64,000 bases of DNA from Geminocystis herdmanii PCC 6308 (GTDB lineage Bacteria; Cyanobacteriota; Cyanobacteriia; Cyanobacteriales; Cyanobacteriaceae), in the NCBI RefSeq assembly GCF_000332235.1, contig NZ_CM001775.1, positions 489,630 through 553,629 on the forward strand, given 5' to 3'. Of the stretch, positions 15,303 through 61,546 are shown piece after piece; the first letter of the stretch is position 1; each line of letters opens with the position of its first letter. The translations under genes were made by a program, and so were the position numbers. Below the pieces are notes generated by a model. The model was not told where the DNA came from. It saw only the letters and a list, made by a program, of their open reading frames with translations, and did not search any database.

Positions 15303-17303
15303 ATGAGTTTATTCGTTGCGATCGATAACATTGAAAAAGTATTTCCCCTCAATAATGGTGGTGAATATTTAGCGTTAAAAGGTATTAATTTAGAAATAAA
15401 AAAAGGTGAATTTATTTCTTTAATTGGACACTCTGGATGTGGTAAGTCCACTCTTTTAAATATGATTGCAGGTTTAGATTTACCCTCCGAAGGAATTGTT
15501 ACTTTAGAAGGGCAAAAAATTAGTAAACCCGGTCCTGAAAGAATGGTAATTTTTCAAAGTTATTGTCTTTTACCTTGGTTAACAGTACATCAAAATATCG
15601 CCCTCGCTGTCGATGAGGTGATGAAGGGTTATTCCGAATCTGAACGCAAGGAAATTGTCGAAGATCATATCAAATTGGTAGGTTTAGCCCACGCTGTCGA
15701 TAAATTTCCTAATGAGTTATCGGGAGGTATGAGACAACGAGTAGCCATCGCCCGTGCCTTGTCTATCCGTCCTAAATTACTCTTACTCGATGAGCCTTTT
15801 GGGGCATTAGATGCCTTAACCAGAGGTAATTTACAAGAACAATTGATGCAAATATGTGATCGTTATCAAATTACTGCGGTTATGGTAACCCACGATGTGG
15901 ACGAAGCCGTATTATTGTCCGATCGAATTGTAATGTTAACTAATGGACCTGGTTCAAAAATTGGTGGTATTTTAGATGTGGATATTCCTCGCCCTCGTCA
16001 AAGAATGGAGGTAGTAAATCACCCTAGTTATTACAGTTTAAGAAGCGAAATTATTTACTTTTTAAACCAACAAAAAAAGATCAAAAAAATACGAGCTCAA
16101 AAACAAGGTGTTATCGCCCGTCATGGCTTAGAAAAAGTCAATTTAGAAATCGGTTTTGTACCTTTAACCGCCTGCGCCCCCTTAGCCATTGCTCAAGAAA
16201 AAGGCTTTTTTGTCAAACACGGCTTAGAAGAAGTAAACCTCGTGCGGGAAACCAGTTGGCGTGGTATTGTCGATGGTATCGCTGGAGGCTATTTAGACTG
16301 TGCCCAAATGCCGGCGGGGATGCCTACATGGTTAACAGTGGGAGGCAATAATAACGAACCCTTACCCACCGTAACCGCCTTAACCATGACTCGTAATGGC
16401 AATGGTGTCACCCTTGCTAAGAAATTTTATGATATGGGTATCCATGATGTACATCATCTCAAAAGAATGTTACTAGAATCGATCGACGAAAATCATCGAT
16501 TTGGCATTGTTCACCCCTCATCTATGCACAATATCTTACTACGTTACTGGTTCGCCGCCGAAGGTATCGATCCTGATACTGATGTACACTTGCAAAATAT
16601 TCCCCCTGCCCAAATGGTAGCAGACTTGAAAGCAGGTTCGATCGACGGTTATTGTGTAGGCGAACCTTGGAATTTACGCGCGGCGATGGAAGGAGTCGGC
16701 TTCACCGTAGCCACCGATTTAGAGGTATGGAATGGACACCCCGGCAAGGTTTTAGGTTTAAGAGAAGATTGGGCAAACGCCTATCCAAACACCCATATCG
16801 CCCTAGTGAAAGCCTTGTTAGAAGCCTGTCAGTATTGTGCTGATCCCACAAATAAAGAAGAGATTCGCACTATTTTAGCCGATCGTAAATACTTGAGTAC
16901 AAGCATAAATTACATTCAGTTGGGTGATCCTAATACTTACAGTTGCAACCTCGATCGAGCAGTGGAATATGCCCACCATCGCTTTTTTGGAGAAGGCATG
17001 AATCGCCCTAGTCGTACAGAACACTTATGGATGATGACACAAATGGCGAGATGGGGGGATATTCCCTTCCCTCGTAACTGGGTTGAAATCTTAGAAAGAG
17101 TGTGTCGTGTAAGTGTATTTAGTACCGCTTGTCGAGAACTAGGATTAAGCGATCTCAAATACCGCCGAGAAGCCATCAAACTTTTTGACGGCATACCTTT
17201 TGACGGGGAAGATCCCATCGGCTACCTCAACCATTTAAGCATCAAACGTAATATTACCATGGCAGAAATTCCCCTTAACTCTCGAATCCTAGTCGCCGCC
17301 TAG
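15303..17303 (+). CDS. cmpC: Bicarbonate ABC transporter ATP-binding protein with C-terminal solute-binding-like domain, CmpC
   Basis: Residues 1 to about 255 form an ABC ATPase: Walker A GHSGCGKST, LLPWLTV Q-loop region, signature LSGGMRQR, Walker B LLLLDEPFGALD and switch His in MVTHDVDEA. Residues about 275-666 are a second domain related to CmpA (LEIGFVPLTACAPLAIAQEKG, IRYW-like LLRYWFAAEGIDPDTDVHL, FDGIPFDGEDPIGYLNHLSIK). This fusion is diagnostic of CmpC/NrtC; the extra domain is thought to regulate transport by sensing substrate on the cytoplasmic side. The length of 666 aa is normal. It begins after AAGGAG-like DNA (ATTAAGGAGTAAAAATT). The next gene should be cmpD, but a toxin-antitoxin pair lies between. 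Confidence 0.93.
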   Translation: MSLFVAIDNIEKVFPLNNGGEYLALKGINLEIKKGEFISLIGHSGCGKSTLLNMIAGLDLPSEGIVTLEGQKISKPGPERMVIFQSYCLLPWLTVHQNIALAVDEVMKGYSESERKEIVEDHIKLVGLAHAVDKFPNELSGGMRQRVAIARALSIRPKLLLLDEPFGALDALTRGNLQEQLMQICDRYQITAVMVTHDVDEAVLLSDRIVMLTNGPGSKIGGILDVDIPRPRQRMEVVNHPSYYSLRSEIIYFLNQQKKIKKIRAQKQGVIARHGLEKVNLEIGFVPLTACAPLAIAQEKGFFVKHGLEEVNLVRETSWRGIVDGIAGGYLDCAQMPAGMPTWLTVGGNNNEPLPTVTALTMTRNGNGVTLAKKFYDMGIHDVHHLKRMLLESIDENHRFGIVHPSSMHNILLRYWFAAEGIDPDTDVHLQNIPPAQMVADLKAGSIDGYCVGEPWNLRAAMEGVGFTVATDLEVWNGHPGKVLGLREDWANAYPNTHIALVKALLEACQYCADPTNKEEIRTILADRKYLSTSINYIQLGDPNTYSCNLDRAVEYAHHRFFGEGMNRPSRTEHLWMMTQMARWGDIPFPRNWVEILERVCRVSVFSTACRELGLSDLKYRREAIKLFDGIPFDGEDPIGYLNHLSIKRNITMAEIPLNSRILVAA

Positions 17304-17402
17304 TTCCTACAACTAATTCTCTCCTACCTTAATAAGGGAATATCAATCAAAAAAAAGGAGGTATAAAATAGATAATAAGTTAAGCCAAAATTAATTAAAT
17401 AT

Positions 17403-17618
17403 ATGCCAGAAAAAAACACCGTAGAACAACGTTTAAGTACCTTAGAAAATACCGTAATTAACTTGCAAAATCAACTTAATCAACATCTTAAATCTGATGA
17501 CTGGTTAGATGATGTTATTGGCTCAGTTTCTGATGAAGAAACTTTTTTAGAAGCCCTAGAATACGGTAGATTATTTCGTGAAGAAAAAATATCTTTTGAA
17601 GAAATAAATGATCAATAA
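17403..17618 (+). CDS. Small antitoxin-like protein paired with a PIN toxin
   Basis: A 71-residue acidic protein beginning with a heptad-like helix (VEQRLSTLENTVINLQNQL), probably a coiled coil, followed by an acidic tail (DEETFLEALEYGRLFREEKISFEEIND). Its stop codon shares one base with the start of the PIN-domain gene (ATGATGA-type junction at 17616-17620), the standard coupling of antitoxin and toxin. The tail probably blocks the PIN active site. I do not recognise the DNA-binding family. It lies inside the cmp operon. A strong GGAGG at about 17358 is some 40 bp upstream of the ATG and may be left over from the older cmpC-cmpD junction. Confidence 0.65.
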   Translation: MPEKNTVEQRLSTLENTVINLQNQLNQHLKSDDWLDDVIGSVSDEETFLEALEYGRLFREEKISFEEINDQ

Positions 17619-18046
17619 TGAAATACTTATTAGACACTGATCATATTAGTTTTCTCCAAAGAAAATCAGGACAAGAATATGAAAATATAATCCGTCATAT
17701 TCGTCAACATTCTTCAAGAGATTTTGCTTTTTCGATTATTAGTTTTCATGAACAAATAATAGGAGCTCATACTTTTATTGTTCGTTCTCAAAATCCAGAG
17801 AAATTGATTAAAGGCTATGGTTTATTGCAACAGGTAATTAATACATTTTCCAAAGCAAATATTTTAGATTTTGATGAAAACTCTGTACAAATTTTTGAAC
17901 GCTTAAAATGTGAAAAAATTACCCTAGCTACTATGGATTTAAGAATTGCCTCGATCGCTCTTTCCCAAGATTTAATTTTGTTAACTCGTAATCGAAAAGA
18001 CTTTAGTAAAGTTCCTAATTTAATTCTTGAAGATTGGACAACTTAG
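17618..18046 (+). CDS. PIN-domain ribonuclease toxin (VapC-type)
   Basis: A 142-residue PIN-domain protein. The acidic active-site residues are visible: Asp in YLLDTDHISFL at the N-terminus, Glu in SFHEQIIG, Asp in TMDLRIASIAL, and a C-terminal LLTRNRKDFSKVPNL segment. PIN toxins cut RNA (often tRNA) when released from the antitoxin. It is translationally coupled to the small upstream gene. The location between cmpC and cmpD is unusual: cmp genes normally follow each other directly or with a porin-like gene. The full-length frame with intact motifs suggests an active or recently active module. Confidence 0.85.
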   Translation: MKYLLDTDHISFLQRKSGQEYENIIRHIRQHSSRDFAFSIISFHEQIIGAHTFIVRSQNPEKLIKGYGLLQQVINTFSKANILDFDENSVQIFERLKCEKITLATMDLRIASIALSQDLILLTRNRKDFSKVPNLILEDWTT

Positions 18047-29810: not shown

Positions 29811-29884
29811 AAGCAGTTTTATACAACAAATTATCTTTTTGTCAAGTTTTCCGTGTTAATTAATTAAGTCTTCAATACAAAGAC

Positions 29885-30085
29885 ACCTGAGTTCGACATA
29901 AAATTTTTGGTGCTGTAAAGGTGTCAGGTATTAGGTTAAAGAATTGACAAAAAATATATCCTAATTGATTTTTTTATCTTCAATTCTTTGATCGAATTAT
30001 ATAATCTTCTGAAAATTACACCTGAAACCTGCAATCTGAAACCTGAAACCTGCCTTTATCAAACATTCTTGCATCGAACTGAGGT
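29885..30085. mobile_element. MITE-like element, divergent-core copy (201 bp)
   Basis: The left end, ACCTGAGTTCGACATAAA, matches the reverse complement of the right end (ACCTCAGTTCGATGCAAG) over about 12-14 bp. A 6-bp direct duplication AAAGAC flanks both sides. Ends match those of the 49025 and 61190 elements, but the inside is different and holds its own heptamer array (CTGAAAC units). No protein is encoded. It fills most of the 29811-30126 gap before thiO-thiG. Confidence 0.8.
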
Positions 30086-30126
30086 AAAGACAATGATAAA
30101 ATAAGAATATATGTTAACGATCGATT

Positions 30127-45558: not shown

Positions 45559-46077
45559 TTATTTATGACAATCTCGATCGCATATTTTAACGGCAGTAGT
45601 TTCACTCAAGCCTTCATTAATATACTTTTTGATGCAGTTAGCAAATTCATCTCTAGGGTTATCTCTAGGAATTGAATTATTTGAGCGACAAAGTTTAACA
45701 CTGTCTTCATTACTAAGACGGCGAGAGGCTTCCGTTACACAAGAGGCGGTATCTTGATTAGAATTTCGACAAACTTCAACCACTTGTGAATTCATCAGAC
45801 GGCGAGAGGTTTCCGTTACACAGGATGCTGTATATTGATTCGCTTTTCTGCAAACTTCTACGACTTCTGAATTCATGAGACGACGGGAGGCTTCTGTGAC
45901 ACAGGATGCTGTATATTGATTAGCATTTTGACAAATTTCTAATGCTTGTGAATTCATGAGACGACGAGAGGCTTCTCTGACGCAACTACTTTTAATATCT
46001 TCTGCATAACTTGGTAAGGTAATAAAAGGTTGAATACTCAGAGAAAAAATAATAGTTGAGACAATTTTTAGATTCAT
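45559..46077 (-). CDS. Exported protein with four Cys-containing 27-residue repeats
   Basis: A 172-residue protein with a signal peptide (about 1-25, IFSLSIQPFITLPSYA). Residues about 30-140 are four near-identical units of the type SCVTEASRRLMNSQVVEVCR followed by a short NxxxTA link, each with two Cys, so paired disulfides within units are likely in the periplasm. The last part (FANCIKKYINEGLSETTAVKICDRDC) has the same Cys spacing in a diverged form. I do not know the function. The next gene upstream is the VirB10-like exported protein on the same strand. Confidence 0.75.
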   Translation of the reverse strand: MNLKIVSTIIFSLSIQPFITLPSYAEDIKSSCVREASRRLMNSQALEICQNANQYTASCVTEASRRLMNSEVVEVCRKANQYTASCVTETSRRLMNSQVVEVCRNSNQDTASCVTEASRRLSNEDSVKLCRSNNSIPRDNPRDEFANCIKKYINEGLSETTAVKICDRDCHK

Positions 46078-48878: not shown

Positions 48879-49024
48879 TTTTTGGGGTAAAGTTCGATCG
48901 TCAAAGACGGTGCTGCGCGATCGAATCTGAAATCATAGATAATCCTGAAACCCGTAAATATACAGATTATGCGATCGCATAAATTATTATCAATAAACAT
49001 GACCATTAGGCATCGATCGAATTT

Positions 49025-49219
49025 ACCTGAGTGAACTATAAAAATAGATGAGGACTGACTTGGAAGACAGGCAGACAGGCAGACAGGAAGATTGTATTTC
49101 TGGTGAATGAATAAAATTCTCTCAAAAGTACATCAAATATTAAGAATTTTTCTCCCATTCGACTTGTCCACTTGTCCACCTGTCTAGTTTTCATCATTTT
49201 CTTTATGGTTCACTGAGGT
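49025..49219. mobile_element. MITE-like element (195 bp)
   Basis: It begins ACCTGAGTGAACTATAAAAA and ends TTTATGGTTCACTGAGGT, giving imperfect terminal inverted repeats of about 15 bp. GAATTT is duplicated directly on both sides. The inside contains 8-bp tandem units (GCAGACAG type at the left, TTGTCCAC type at the right). Read in reverse it is nearly identical to 61190-61392 and exactly one 8-bp unit shorter. The rest of the 48879-49413 gap holds a TATGCGATCGCATA palindrome (about 48967-48980) and a small GGGCTAGAAGCCC hairpin (about 49226-49238), with no gene. Confidence 0.88.
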
Positions 49220-49413
49220 GAATTTGGGCTAGAAGCCCGAAATACGGTGCAAAAATCATAATTATTGGCAAAAGAACAATTAATTAGGGTTTGCTGAAAA
49301 AGTTTTTTTATTAAGCCTAGGTGTTAAGTTTTAGGCTACATAATGATAAATCAAGGTGTTGAGCCAAATTAAAGAAGTTGGGTTTCGTTGCCTCAACCCA
49401 ACCTACCTTAGCT

Positions 49414-51483
49414 TTAACCTGCACCGAAGGCAATGCCTTCATTAACAAAACTAGGGAAGTTTTGCGTAATACTTGCCGTTTCTTCTGGTCCTGCAAATAA
49501 GTATGTACCGGGTAAGTTAAGATTCTGGAAACGATTATAAGTCGTACCTTGTCCACTTCCGGGGGCATGAACATAAAATGCAACGCCTTCTTCCACAAAA
49601 TTACGGAAATTCTGACGAATAACGATACTTTCGGCTTCCCCTGCGAATAAATATGTGCCGGGTACGGAACTATTTTGGAAACGATTTAAGGCAATTAAAC
49701 CATCTCCTCCAGAGTTGGCAACATTAAAAGCAAATCCTTCCTCCACAAAGTTAGGATAATTAGCTTTAACACTACGTCTTTCTTCTTCTCCTACAAATAA
49801 ATATGTACCGGGTACAGAACGATTTTGAAAACGATAAATGGGAACATTAAAAGTAGGGGGAGGAAGCACTCCTTCAAAAGCACCAATATCTACTGTGCCA
49901 TCAATAATACGGGAAAAACTTGCACCCCGTTGATCAAAGGTAGCAAATTCATCGGTAATACCATTATTGTTTAAGTCGAGGGTATCGGGAGGAATTAAAC
50001 TATTATTTCCTGCATTAATCGCAGGGCTACCTTGATATAAGGCATGGGTTTTGGTTAAACCGCCATAGTTACCTAAAGGGGCAAGACGAATATTATTATT
50101 GACAATATCTGTACCCGTACCAATCGTACCACTAGCTCCCCTTAGATCACCGATGAGATTGTTGTTATCTCCATTAATATTACCTGAAACATCAGGATGA
50201 ATATCAAGATTACTAGGGCTAAGATCTCTGTTTCCTGCAACGATCGTATTTCTTAGGCTAATATTAACACCGCTACGGAAAATTCCTCCTCCATTTCCAG
50301 AGCCTGAACTGTTAGCATCAGCGACATTATTAGTGATCGTACTATTAGTAATAATTGTCTCCGTAGAGCTAATGTATAAGCCACCAGCATCCCGATTGCT
50401 AGTGTTACCGCTAATGGTAGAGTTTTCAATCAAAACATTTCCATTAAGCCTAAGACCACCACCACCTTCACCAAAAGAGTTCGCAATAACTCGATTATTG
50501 CTGATAGTGGAATTAATAATATTAACCGTACTTAGTGCAAATACCCCCCCACCATCAAAGGTTGCAGTATTACCATCGATCGTGGAGGAAAAAACATTGA
50601 GAGTTCCATTGTTATTAACACGAACCCCACCTCCAGAAGATTCTGCATAACCGCCGGTAACAGTGACATTTTCCAGGGTGAGAGTAGCATCGTTAAGAAC
50701 ATCAAATACTCGATCTCTTTGACTCAATCCCCTAGCATCAATAGTCGCTGGAGTTTGCCCTGTCCCTTGAGTCCTAACGGTAATATTACCTCGAATATCT
50801 AAATCTCCTGTGAGAGCTGAATCTTCATGACTACCATTTTGGGTGAGGGTATAAGTCTGCCCGGGTTGTAAAACAATTACATATTCTACGGCAGGATTGT
50901 TATTGGCAAAGATAACCGCATCCCTGAGAGATAAACCATTTTCGGCTGTGCCGTCATTTTGATCAAAGGTAGTGGTGACATTGAGGTTAAAGGTAGCGTT
51001 TTCGACATCGATTAATTGCCCGTCAACGGAGACAAAACCCGAATCATCTTTGTTTTGTAAAGTTGTCAGCAATTCTGGAGAAATATCTTCACCTCTAGCT
51101 AAGAGAGAAAAAATTGCACCTTCATCTCCGGGGGTATCCACGAGATTGATTTGGGCATCGATAAAGTGTCCATATTCTTCTAACAAGACGTTGCGGATTT
51201 TTTTTGGGAATTCAGATTCAACGAGACTAGAAGAAAGATAGATGGTGTTATTCAATGCACTATAAGCACCTTGAGCACCATTAATTTCCGTAGGGGATAA
51301 AATTTCGATGGTTGGTAAATTACTGAAATCACCGTTACGCCATGAGGAGAAGATATTATTAGCTATGGCAACGTTATAGTTATCTCCAAAGGCGATGGAT
51401 AAATTTGTTTCGAGACTTGGATTAAGGGAGGCTTCGAGCAGGAGGGCTTCGGCTTGGGTGAGCGCTTGAGATAGTTGGTTCAT
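49414..51483 (-). CDS. Secreted beta-helix protein with choice-of-anchor-Q-like region and C-terminal triple repeat
   Basis: A 689-residue leaderless protein. Residues about 1-165 are a cyanobacterial N-terminal region found on exported proteins (INGAQGAYSALNNTIYLSSSLV, NVLLEEYGHFIDAQINLVDTPGDEGAIFS). Residues about 170-450 form a right-handed beta-helix of the polymorphic outer-membrane type (LSLRDAVIFANNNP, LTLENVTVTGGYAESSGGGV, NIINSTISNNRV, GGGLRLNG). Residues about 470-545 match the choice-of-anchor Q type (YGGLTKTHALYQGSPAINAG to DIGAFEG). The last about 135 residues are three repeats (YRFQNRSVPGTYLFVGEEER type) shared with the giant and CAP proteins. Likely exported by type I secretion to the surface; function unknown. 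Confidence 0.88.
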   Translation of the reverse strand: MNQLSQALTQAEALLLEASLNPSLETNLSIAFGDNYNVAIANNIFSSWRNGDFSNLPTIEILSPTEINGAQGAYSALNNTIYLSSSLVESEFPKKIRNVLLEEYGHFIDAQINLVDTPGDEGAIFSLLARGEDISPELLTTLQNKDDSGFVSVDGQLIDVENATFNLNVTTTFDQNDGTAENGLSLRDAVIFANNNPAVEYVIVLQPGQTYTLTQNGSHEDSALTGDLDIRGNITVRTQGTGQTPATIDARGLSQRDRVFDVLNDATLTLENVTVTGGYAESSGGGVRVNNNGTLNVFSSTIDGNTATFDGGGVFALSTVNIINSTISNNRVIANSFGEGGGGLRLNGNVLIENSTISGNTSNRDAGGLYISSTETIITNSTITNNVADANSSGSGNGGGIFRSGVNISLRNTIVAGNRDLSPSNLDIHPDVSGNINGDNNNLIGDLRGASGTIGTGTDIVNNNIRLAPLGNYGGLTKTHALYQGSPAINAGNNSLIPPDTLDLNNNGITDEFATFDQRGASFSRIIDGTVDIGAFEGVLPPPTFNVPIYRFQNRSVPGTYLFVGEEERRSVKANYPNFVEEGFAFNVANSGGDGLIALNRFQNSSVPGTYLFAGEAESIVIRQNFRNFVEEGVAFYVHAPGSGQGTTYNRFQNLNLPGTYLFAGPEETASITQNFPSFVNEGIAFGAG

Positions 51484-59472: not shown

Positions 59473-60417
59473 ATGAACATTGTTGTCACAGGTGCAACGG
59501 GCTTTTTAGGCAGACATTTATTACCCCAACTAAAAATACAATATCCTCAAGCGAAAATCATCGGTTTATCTTCTCAAAATTACGACTTGATGAATCCTGT
59601 AGAAGTAGTGAAAATGTTTGAAGATTTACATCCTGAGATACTAATACATTTAGCCGCTTATTCGGGAGGAATTGGGGCAAATCGTGCCTATCCTGCGGAT
59701 TTTTATTATCGTAACACCCTTTTAACCGCTTTAGTATTTGAACAGGCGGCTAAGTATAACGTCAAAAAAATGATTTACACCATGGGAGGATGTAGTTATC
59801 CTGCCACTGCTAATTCTCCTATCGATGAATCTCAGATGTGGCAAGGTTATCCTCAACCCGAAAGCGCAGGTTATTCTAGTGCGAAAAAAATGGGCATTGT
59901 CGCTTCCCAATCCTATCGCACTCAATATGGTTTAAATTCTGTGGTGTTAATTCCCGGTAATTTGTATGGAGAATACGATAATTTTCGCAATAATGAATCC
60001 CATGTTGTACCTGCTTTAATTCGGCGTTTCTATGAAGCTAAATTGAATCAATTAGAAGAAGTTGCTATGTGGGGAAGTGGCAAACCTCAACGGGATTTTG
60101 TTTATGCGGAAGATGTGGCAAAAGTTCTGCCTTATTTTATTGAGAATTATGACTCTAGTGAGCCGATAAATATTTCTTCGGGTACAACTACCCCTATTAA
60201 AGAATTGGCGGAATTAGTCAAAGAAACCACTGGTTTTGAAGGAAAACTTACTTGGGATGTCACGAAGCCTGATGGGCAAATGGTGAAAATTTTTGATGTT
60301 AAAAAACTCAATTCTTTGGGGTTATCTTGCGATACAAATATAAAAAATGGTTTAGAAAAAACTTTCACTTGGTTAAGTAAAAATTATGCAAATAAAACCG
60401 ATGGTATTAGACTCTAA
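59473..60417 (+). CDS. GDP-L-fucose synthase-like NAD-dependent epimerase/reductase
   Basis: Converts GDP-4-keto-6-deoxymannose to GDP-L-fucose (or a related sugar). The 314-residue protein has the Rossmann motif VVTGATGFLGRHLLPQL, the family-specific HLAAYSGGIGANRAYPADFYYRN, the GGCSYPATANSP motif with catalytic Ser, and YSSAKK with catalytic Tyr and Lys. The 314-aa size fits GDP-fucose synthase. A TTG at 59446 would add nine residues, but ATG 59473 fits the Rossmann start. It overlaps the next gene by 32 bp. It could also be another 3,5-epimerase-type sugar enzyme; the substrate is inferred. Confidence 0.87.
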   Translation: MNIVVTGATGFLGRHLLPQLKIQYPQAKIIGLSSQNYDLMNPVEVVKMFEDLHPEILIHLAAYSGGIGANRAYPADFYYRNTLLTALVFEQAAKYNVKKMIYTMGGCSYPATANSPIDESQMWQGYPQPESAGYSSAKKMGIVASQSYRTQYGLNSVVLIPGNLYGEYDNFRNNESHVVPALIRRFYEAKLNQLEEVAMWGSGKPQRDFVYAEDVAKVLPYFIENYDSSEPINISSGTTTPIKELAELVKETTGFEGKLTWDVTKPDGQMVKIFDVKKLNSLGLSCDTNIKNGLEKTFTWLSKNYANKTDGIRL

Positions 60418-61177
60418 TCTGAAAATTATTATTATCGGAGGAGAAGGTTTTGTTGGTTCGGCTTATGTTCGTTTTTGTCAACAAAATAACTTTGATTATT
60501 TAGTCATAAATCGATCGAACTATAACCAACATATTGGCACAAAATGTGATTTATTAATCAACGCCAATGGTAACTCGAAAAAATTTTTAGCTAAAGATAA
60601 CCCCTTACTAGAGTTTGACGAATCTGTCCGTTCTGTGCGACGATCGATCGTAGATTTCCCTAGTAAAAAGTATATATTCTTGTCATCTTGTGATGTTTAC
60701 CCTGATTGTTCAACTCCTGAATTAACGAAAGAAGACACGGTGATTGACATTACCCAACAAAGTCCTTATGGTTTTCATAAGTATTTAGCTGAACAATGTG
60801 TGCGTCACTGTCACGATGATTGGTTAATCTTCCGCATGGGGGGTTTTGTGGGGGCTGGATTAAAGAAAAATGCCATTTTTGATATTCTTTACGGCGATCG
60901 ACTTTGGTTACATCCTGAAAGCGAATTGCAATATATCCATACCGATATAGCCACAAAAACAGTGATGGAAATTATCTCTCAAGGTTACACCCAAGAAATT
61001 TTTAATCTTTGTGGTAATGGTTTAGTAAAATTACAAGACGTGATCGATCGAACTCAAAGTAAGATTACCGTGAATTTGGATATTTCTCCTGTGTGTTATG
61101 AGGTTTCGATCGAGAAAATTCAATCTATTGTCAATATTCCTTCCACCCGTGACACCGTTATGAAATTCCTAAAGTGA
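60386..61177 (+). CDS. NAD-dependent epimerase/dehydratase family protein (extended SDR)
   Basis: A 263-residue SDR enzyme, somewhat shorter than usual extended members. Nucleotide motif IIIIGGEGFVGSAYVRF, then LLINANGNSKKFL, SSCDVYPDC (active Ser), and QQSPYGFHKYLAE with Tyr and Lys of the YxxxK pair. LIFRMGGFVGAGLKKNAIFDIL follows. It overlaps the upstream epimerase gene by 32 bp; an ATG at 60401 would reduce this to 17 bp. The tight pairing suggests two steps of one sugar-nucleotide route. Substrate unknown. Confidence 0.87.
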   Translation: MQIKPMVLDSNLKIIIIGGEGFVGSAYVRFCQQNNFDYLVINRSNYNQHIGTKCDLLINANGNSKKFLAKDNPLLEFDESVRSVRRSIVDFPSKKYIFLSSCDVYPDCSTPELTKEDTVIDITQQSPYGFHKYLAEQCVRHCHDDWLIFRMGGFVGAGLKKNAIFDILYGDRLWLHPESELQYIHTDIATKTVMEIISQGYTQEIFNLCGNGLVKLQDVIDRTQSKITVNLDISPVCYEVSIEKIQSIVNIPSTRDTVMKFLK

Positions 61178-61189
61178 AAGATAAGATAT

Positions 61190-61392
61190 ACCTCAGTTCG
61201 ACATAAAGAAAATGATGAAAACTAGACAGGTGGACAAGTGGACAAGTGGACAGGGAGAAAAATTCTCAATATTTGATGTACTTTTGAGAAAATTTTATTC
61301 ATTCATCAGAAATACAATCTTCCTGTCTTCCTGTCTTCCTGTCTTCCTGTCTTCCAAGTCAGCCCTCACCTATTTTTATATCGAACTCAGGT
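61190..61392. mobile_element. MITE-like element (203 bp)
   Basis: It begins ACCTCAGTTCGACATAAAGA and ends TTTATATCGAACTCAGGT, giving terminal inverted repeats of about 17 bp with few mismatches. The 7-bp sequence AAGATAT is duplicated directly at 61183-61189 and 61393-61399. The inside holds two 8-bp arrays (GTGGACAA and four CTTCCTGT units). It is the inverted, near-identical sister of 49025-49219. The rest of the 61178-61546 gap shows only the promoter side of the next gene. Confidence 0.9.
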
Positions 61393-61546
61393 AAGATATG
61401 GGGAGATGGGGAGTTAGGGAATATCAGAGAAAATGTTAATTGTCAAAGTTTGTAAGTCAGGAAAATTTTATCATTCAACAAATTAGGTTAAGAATAGGTT
61501 AAGATAAAGTTTCAGTCACAAATTATAGTAATAGTGGGGGGAAACA

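Follow-up and report, generated by a model that had tools for sequence, protein, structure and literature searches.

The 203-bp element at positions 61190–61392 (plus strand) of the window, the 64,000-nucleotide stretch of DNA analysed here, is very probably a gene-free miniature inverted-repeat transposable element (MITE) that derives from an IS982 insertion sequence and was moved in trans by an IS982 transposase. The name is given because the ends of the element, or kindred ones, bound IS982 elements in other genomes, and an IS982 copy at 874 kb of the host's own genome (L220) also has these ends. The classification as an element of an ordinary kind, an IS982 MITE, is well supported. In the proposed mechanism, a DDE transposase of the IS982 family, acting in trans, would recognise the roughly 18-bp ends (ACCTSAGT, followed by TCGA or GAAC and by YATA), excise or copy the MITE, and insert it into AT-rich DNA at a cut staggered by 6 or 7 bp in most cases, which would give rise to a target site duplication (TSD).

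The element is flanked on both sides by the 7-bp sequence AAGATAT, at 61183–61189 and 61393–61399, exactly where the initial annotation had placed the duplication and the limits of the element. The terminal inverted repeats (TIRs) described there are also present: ACCTCAGTTCGACATAAA at 61190–61207 on the plus strand and ACCTGAGTTCGATATAAA at 61375–61392, given as the reverse strand, are near-perfect over 18 bp, with mismatches at base 5 (C/G) and base 13 (C/T). The only frame of at least 60 aa that starts inside the element is 60 aa long (61212–61394) and stops two bases past its end, in agreement with the original view that the element has no gene; no IS982 transposase was found within it. 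The element thus combines the features of a MITE: it is short, has no transposase gene, is bounded by TIRs and a duplication, and occurs in many copies. It begins 12 bp 3' of the stop codon of an epimerase-like gene (263 aa, 60386–61177) and is positioned upstream of a gene for a 78-aa DUF7219 protein and an OprB porin gene.

The host genome is a single contig of 4.26 Mb, in which the 14-mer ACCTSAGTTCGAYA occurs 67 + 65 times, compared to 0 + 1 times for a reversed-pattern control, indicating that the repetition of the ends exceeds chance. BLAST searches of this genome, which provide lower bounds for copy numbers, identified at least 47 matches to the 203-bp query, at least 40 of them strong and 82–100% identical (40 were scored among 227 first-look candidates), and at least 43 matches to an element with a different interior, referred to as family B. 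Among the loci examined, 61 distinct elements with two recognisable ends were delimited after double-counted pairs had been merged (68 to 61) and copies without both ends excluded. The interior of 35 of them belongs to family A, that of the window element, and that of 24 to family B, whereas two belong to neither. Exact duplications of at least 5 bp flank 39 of the 61 elements, with lengths of 6 bp (21 elements), 7 bp (13), 8 bp (3), 5 bp (1), and 14 bp (1), and are missing from the remaining 22. In permuted flank pairs, such duplications occur in 135 of 18006 (0.75%). These numbers support the target duplication claimed at the outset; a complete lack of duplications among genomic copies, which had been put forward as one of two results that would speak against a MITE, was not observed.

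The duplications also bear on the reading of the element as a non-mobile interspersed repeat, of the REP or short-tandem-repeat type, that recombination has spread and that is flanked by repeats only by coincidence. The 8-bp tandem arrays and the hairpin potential of the element presumably resemble those of cyanobacterial short repeats; however, the excess of duplications over the permuted flanks, the sharp ends, and the insertion of one element into another with a duplication leave this reading with a negligible probability. The nested insertion is at locus L005, where a family A element with the 7-bp duplication GAAACCT resides inside a family B element. The junction ...GAAACCT / GAAACCTGCC... 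is uninterrupted in the family B copy of the window, which therefore represents a paralogous empty site. Empty-site alleles in relatives, the absence of which had been named as the other result against a MITE, were sought at three loci in four same-genus genomes. None of the three loci yielded an orthologous empty site, because the coding regions on its two sides match in separate places or on separate contigs of these genomes.

The two further copies that the initial annotation had assigned to the same family are both real, but they are not equivalent. The element at 49025–49219 (minus strand; 49019–49225 including the 6-bp TSD GAATTT) has GAAC-type ends on both sides and an interior of the same family as that of 61190–61392, to which it is 87% identical. 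In contrast, the element at 29885–30085 (plus strand; 29879–30091 including the 6-bp TSD AAAGAC) belongs to family B and has only the ends in common with the window element. The same ends thus enclose two unrelated interiors. Eight copies, each 196 bp long, do not differ from one another in sequence, and seven of them have distinct duplications, from which we infer a recent burst. The mean pairwise difference is 16% in family B (25 rows) and 9% in family A (36 rows), both determined before merging.

The duplications have an AT content of 79%, compared to 68% for the flanks (list before merging). Only 3 of 37 insertion points are located inside frames of at least 100 aa, in comparison with 77% of points placed at random in these stretches (list before merging), which indicates that the surviving copies are nearly all intergenic. 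Among the in-frame insertions, L009 ends a frame at its stop codon and L322 is at the 3' end of another; judging from the translations, we take these frames to be fabD-like and proA-like, respectively. Of the 34 MITE-bearing intervals, 11 are convergent, 15 tandem, and 8 divergent, compared to 3, 16, and 2 of 21 other intervals, numbers that are too few for conclusions about a terminator or regulatory role. At L029:1501-1694, a family A copy breaks the start of a frame that comes after a short frame. We assume the interrupted frame to be GNAT-like and the preceding one DUF1778-like, a pair resembling a toxin-antitoxin system.

The element could initially not be matched to a named family. This view is superseded, as its ends are those of IS982 insertion sequences, among them L220 of the host itself. 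A search of the own genome with the NCBIfam IS982 model NF033520 identified one full-length match, L220 (251 bits, cut-off 130), and one fragment, L221; of 14 control genomes, six contain matches, and one of these has a match above the cut-off. The frame of L220 extends over 305 aa without a stop and matches PF13612 with 230 bits. Residues 123, 200, and 247 are D, D, and E, respectively, in sequence contexts shared with its relatives, and we take D123, D200, and E247 to be the DDE triad. The left end of L220, GCCTGAGTTCGATATAAG, and its right end, ACCTGAGTTCGATATAAC, are separated by 1259 bp. The MITE ends of L034 and L060 follow the left end of L220 to base 23, with at most two mismatches from base 2 onward, but no match continues past about 23 bp. 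Family A may go back to an IS982 element that has left a recognisable trace of only about 23 bp, at one end.

Members of the IS982 family are described in PMC7335449 as about 1 kb long, with conserved AC tips (57/69), direct repeats of variable length, and the end consensus AC(N)6T(N)5TT. The end at 61190 fits this consensus at four of five conserved positions; base 16 is A instead of T. Like members of the family, of which ISAba825 (975 bp, 7-bp repeats) is an example, the MITE has AC tips and T at bases 9 and 15, and the direct repeats listed for the family in this source include lengths of 6, 7, and 8 bp, as found here. In contrast to the MITE, the family members carry a transposase gene.

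The 18-mer ACCTSAGTTCGAYATAAA was found in at least 116 stretches of public genomes, the titles of which include Bacteroidota, Chlorobiota, Acinetobacter, Thioploca, and Geminocystis. Among the 116 matches listed, 27 have a pair of ends with an exact duplication of at least 5 bp. The pairs span about 160–453 bp in 21 cases, about 1 kb in five (L130, L143, L154, L214, and L215), and 1.9 kb in one. At three loci outside the own genome, the transposase frame enclosed by such ends was scored, and all three frames exceed the IS982 cut-off of 130 bits: a 980-bp IS982 of Acinetobacter portensis (L143; 256 bits, 5-bp TSD), a 1040-bp IS982 of a Draconibacterium assembly (L130; 260 bits, 5-bp TSD), and an 1110-bp IS982 of Thioploca (L178; 228 bits, no exact TSD). 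A 964-bp element on a plasmid of Cyanobacterium sp. Dongsha4 (L323), annotated as IS982 in its record, has the kindred end ACCTCAGTTTTGGATAAG and an 8-bp TSD, TGATGGTA. Two stretches of 262 bp in one Chlorobiota draft genome (L120:281-542 and L155:3191-3452) have the same 18-bp ends and 5-bp flanking repeats; they are too short for a transposase and therefore are probably IS982 MITEs too. The presence of the same ends on such short stretches in Bacteroidota and Chlorobiota contigs suggests that annotation underestimates how widespread IS982 MITEs are.

In genomes of the same family, IS982 elements are about 960–968 bp long, with ACCTCAGTTTTGGATAAG in G001 and G008, and ACCTGAGTTCGGGATAAG in G006, where one copy has a 6-bp duplication. 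Genomes in which ends and transposase do not go together count against the assignment: the G006 genome contains 15 IS982 matches and no exact TCGA-type end. Conversely, 4 of 15 family genomes contain exact TCGA-type ends but no IS982 match (E 1e-10): G004 with 38 ends, G011 with 24, G014, an incomplete draft, with 4, and G012 with 2.

A transposase gene with the same ends, which the initial annotation had suggested looking for along with 6–7 bp duplications, was found in IS982; L220, the own-genome copy, has no flanking duplication. L220 is not a pristine donor: it measures 1259 bp, compared to about 960–1110 bp elsewhere, its first base is G, and it is present in a single copy. By eye, there is no ATG at the expected place of its start codon, where a TTG fits. 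The transposase that moved the MITEs may be that of L220 or of a close relative that was lost or travels between genomes. The idea that the mover was another IS982, plasmid-borne or since lost, with L220 as a bystander, refines the main reading more than it competes with it and has a little less than an even chance. The changed tip base of L220 and its lack of a duplication fit this idea, as does an IS982 remnant in G009, from another genus, with nearly the same right end, ACCTCAGTTCGATATAACAGTAAA. Furthermore, a MITE of G004 (L359:1019-1204) with its own 7-bp duplication is 95.7% identical to copy L018 of the own genome, whereas long coding matches between the two genomes are about 74–83% identical; it is possible that the MITE was transferred between species, and elements or donors may travel in this way. 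On the other hand, L220 shares TTCGATATAAG with the MITE ends of L034 and L060, whereas the multi-copy IS982 elements of G001 and G008 have TTTTGGATAAG at this position. Position 45717 of plasmid pGM02 from Geminocystis sp. NIES-3708 holds a distant relative of the MITE, and the same-genus genome G001 has a match at C3:45714; G001 therefore probably represents this strain, and the host probably belongs to Geminocystis.

The ends of the 61 elements are of two types, ACCTSAGT-TCGA-YATA and ACCTSAGT-GAAC-YATA. Two TCGA ends, as in the window element, are present in 36 elements (23 with a duplication), one end of each type in 19 (12 with a duplication), and two GAAC ends in 6 (4 with a duplication). 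The duplications of the mixed elements indicate that these elements move, which argues against the reading that the two end types serve two different transposases. The swap of a four-base block within otherwise constant ends agrees with two enzymes, as do the other blocks, TTTG and TCGG, at this position in IS982 elements of other same-family genomes. However, ten IS982 loci were checked without any GAAC-ended IS982 being found, although no end could be recognised at several of them. Of 388 genomes of the order, 6 contain the GAAC end; four of these belong to this genus, and the other two have a single match each. Two dedicated transposases are therefore quite improbable. The own genome has 61 matches to the GAAC end, and three of four other same-genus genomes have 1, 1, and 9; 13 matching stretches are in viral contigs. 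In 57 of the 61 elements, base 5 is C at one end and G at the other, an asymmetry also present in the IS982 elements of G001, G008, and Dongsha4, and absent from L220 and L143.

The right end of L220 contains CAGTGAACC 18–26 bp inside, just within the TIR. Omission of the 13 bp preceding CAGTGAACC would give ACCTCAGTGAACC, which corresponds to the first 13 bases of the GAAC end, whereas later bases mismatch (compared by eye and post hoc). It is possible that this inner sequence was the source of the GAAC end.

The interiors of family A elements contain opposed arrays, (GACAAGTG)n and (TCTTCCTG)n. In the window element, the left-arm array of 8-bp tandem units has 3.5 units of GACAAGTG (61225–61252, plus strand) and pairs with a right-arm array of 4.8 8-bp units of TCTTCCTG (61318–61355, plus strand), so that the element is predicted to fold into one long hairpin. 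The predicted folding energy is −67.8 kcal/mol, compared to −41.0 kcal/mol (sd 4.0) for 200 shuffled sequences, none of which reached as low a value; with DNA energy parameters, the z-score is −3.1, and 2 of 200 shuffles were as low. When all 61 elements were folded with 40 shuffles each, a z-score of −3 or lower was obtained for 31 of 35 family A and 14 of 24 family B elements. The low scores are partly due to the TIRs themselves. After trimming 20 nt from each end, z-scores of −3 or lower remained in 19 of 30 elements, a chosen part of the 61, whereas others were near zero or −1 (e.g. L242, −0.1; L024, −1.3), indicating that the hairpin is common but not universal. In family B, 7-bp units of the GGTGTCA and ACCTGAA types are discernible by eye in the two arms, but the best structure of the element at 29885–30085 is less complete. 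The number of array units differs among copies, and by eye the variants of the right array have no compensating change in the left one. A joint reading of the ends and interiors is that, within one genus, IS982 MITEs rebuilt a working GAAC end from the inner CAGTGAACC, a putative second transposase-binding site, that one enzyme reads both ends, and that unrelated interiors converged on hairpins with paired arrays of 7–8 bp that aid multiplication. We consider this combination unlikely.

Nezha, a MITE described as active in cyanobacteria, comes from the same group of hosts, and its ends presumably differ from those found here. The closest published counterparts are MITECca01 and MITECca02 of Cardinium cOegib, related to ISCca4 of the IS982 family (PMC9769881), which are likewise short (about 240 bp), without a transposase, have IS982-like ends, and are distributed genome-wide. 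As here, a related IS982 is present in the same genome; however, the host is a spider endosymbiont, and the parental ISCca4 has 7 intact among 68 copies. Paired tandem arrays and two end types, as observed here, are not mentioned for MITECca01/02 in the available text of PMC9769881. According to this source, IS982 MITEs are a known kind of element, and the assignment is new for the present genome. The BrickBuilt MITE-like element of Porphyromonas gingivalis (PMC4596501) likewise contains a tandem array with a copy number that varies, is predicted to form stem-loops, and is located between genes, but differs in having 23-nt units in a single array, and IS982 does not appear in the available text. 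Literature searches identified no paper joining Geminocystis with "miniature inverted-repeat", and the six papers that contain one of the 12-mers of the ends are all unrelated, judging by their titles. The assignment gives a name to a repeat that abounds in the intergenic regions of this cyanobacterium and extends the set of described IS982 MITEs by one from a cyanobacterial host. The IS982 family has been called somewhat unexplored by its reviewers (PMC7335449). The natural series of TCGA/TCGA, TCGA/GAAC, and GAAC/GAAC ends, each with members flanked by duplications, offers a tool for determining which bases IS982 transposases read, and together with the paired arrays might merit study by specialists.

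An autonomous partner was first sought beside unpaired ends, in 13 stretches. The candidate L061 looked promising, with frames 250 bp in that resemble a degraded transposase; the three frames scanned have no Pfam match. L061 was rejected, as it is half of a family B MITE cut off by this other sequence, beside TniB and TniQ genes. At several other unpaired ends, the second end proved to be of the GAAC type, and the rest are solo ends or fragments. The genes with TniB and TniQ domains (L061:3037-4139, own genome about 16736–17838) adjoin the broken IS-like stretch with the half MITE, and we assume that they may belong to a degraded Tn7/Tn5053-like or CAST-like transposon.

Another family of MITE-like elements, 107–109 bp long and of the form TATACTTGGCGAGGG...GATGAGTATA, has internal AGGCAAA repeats (e.g. 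L221:1416-1524, own genome 687857–687965). It has at least 41 matches in the own genome, 29 of them near-complete, and 15 of these 29 are 100% identical. Copies are located in the IS982 remnant L221, the IS-like stretch L061, and the TIR-bounded element L056. Near the MITE copy at 49025, the window also contains a 689-aa frame (49414–51483, minus strand), the repeats of which look beta-helix-like by eye.
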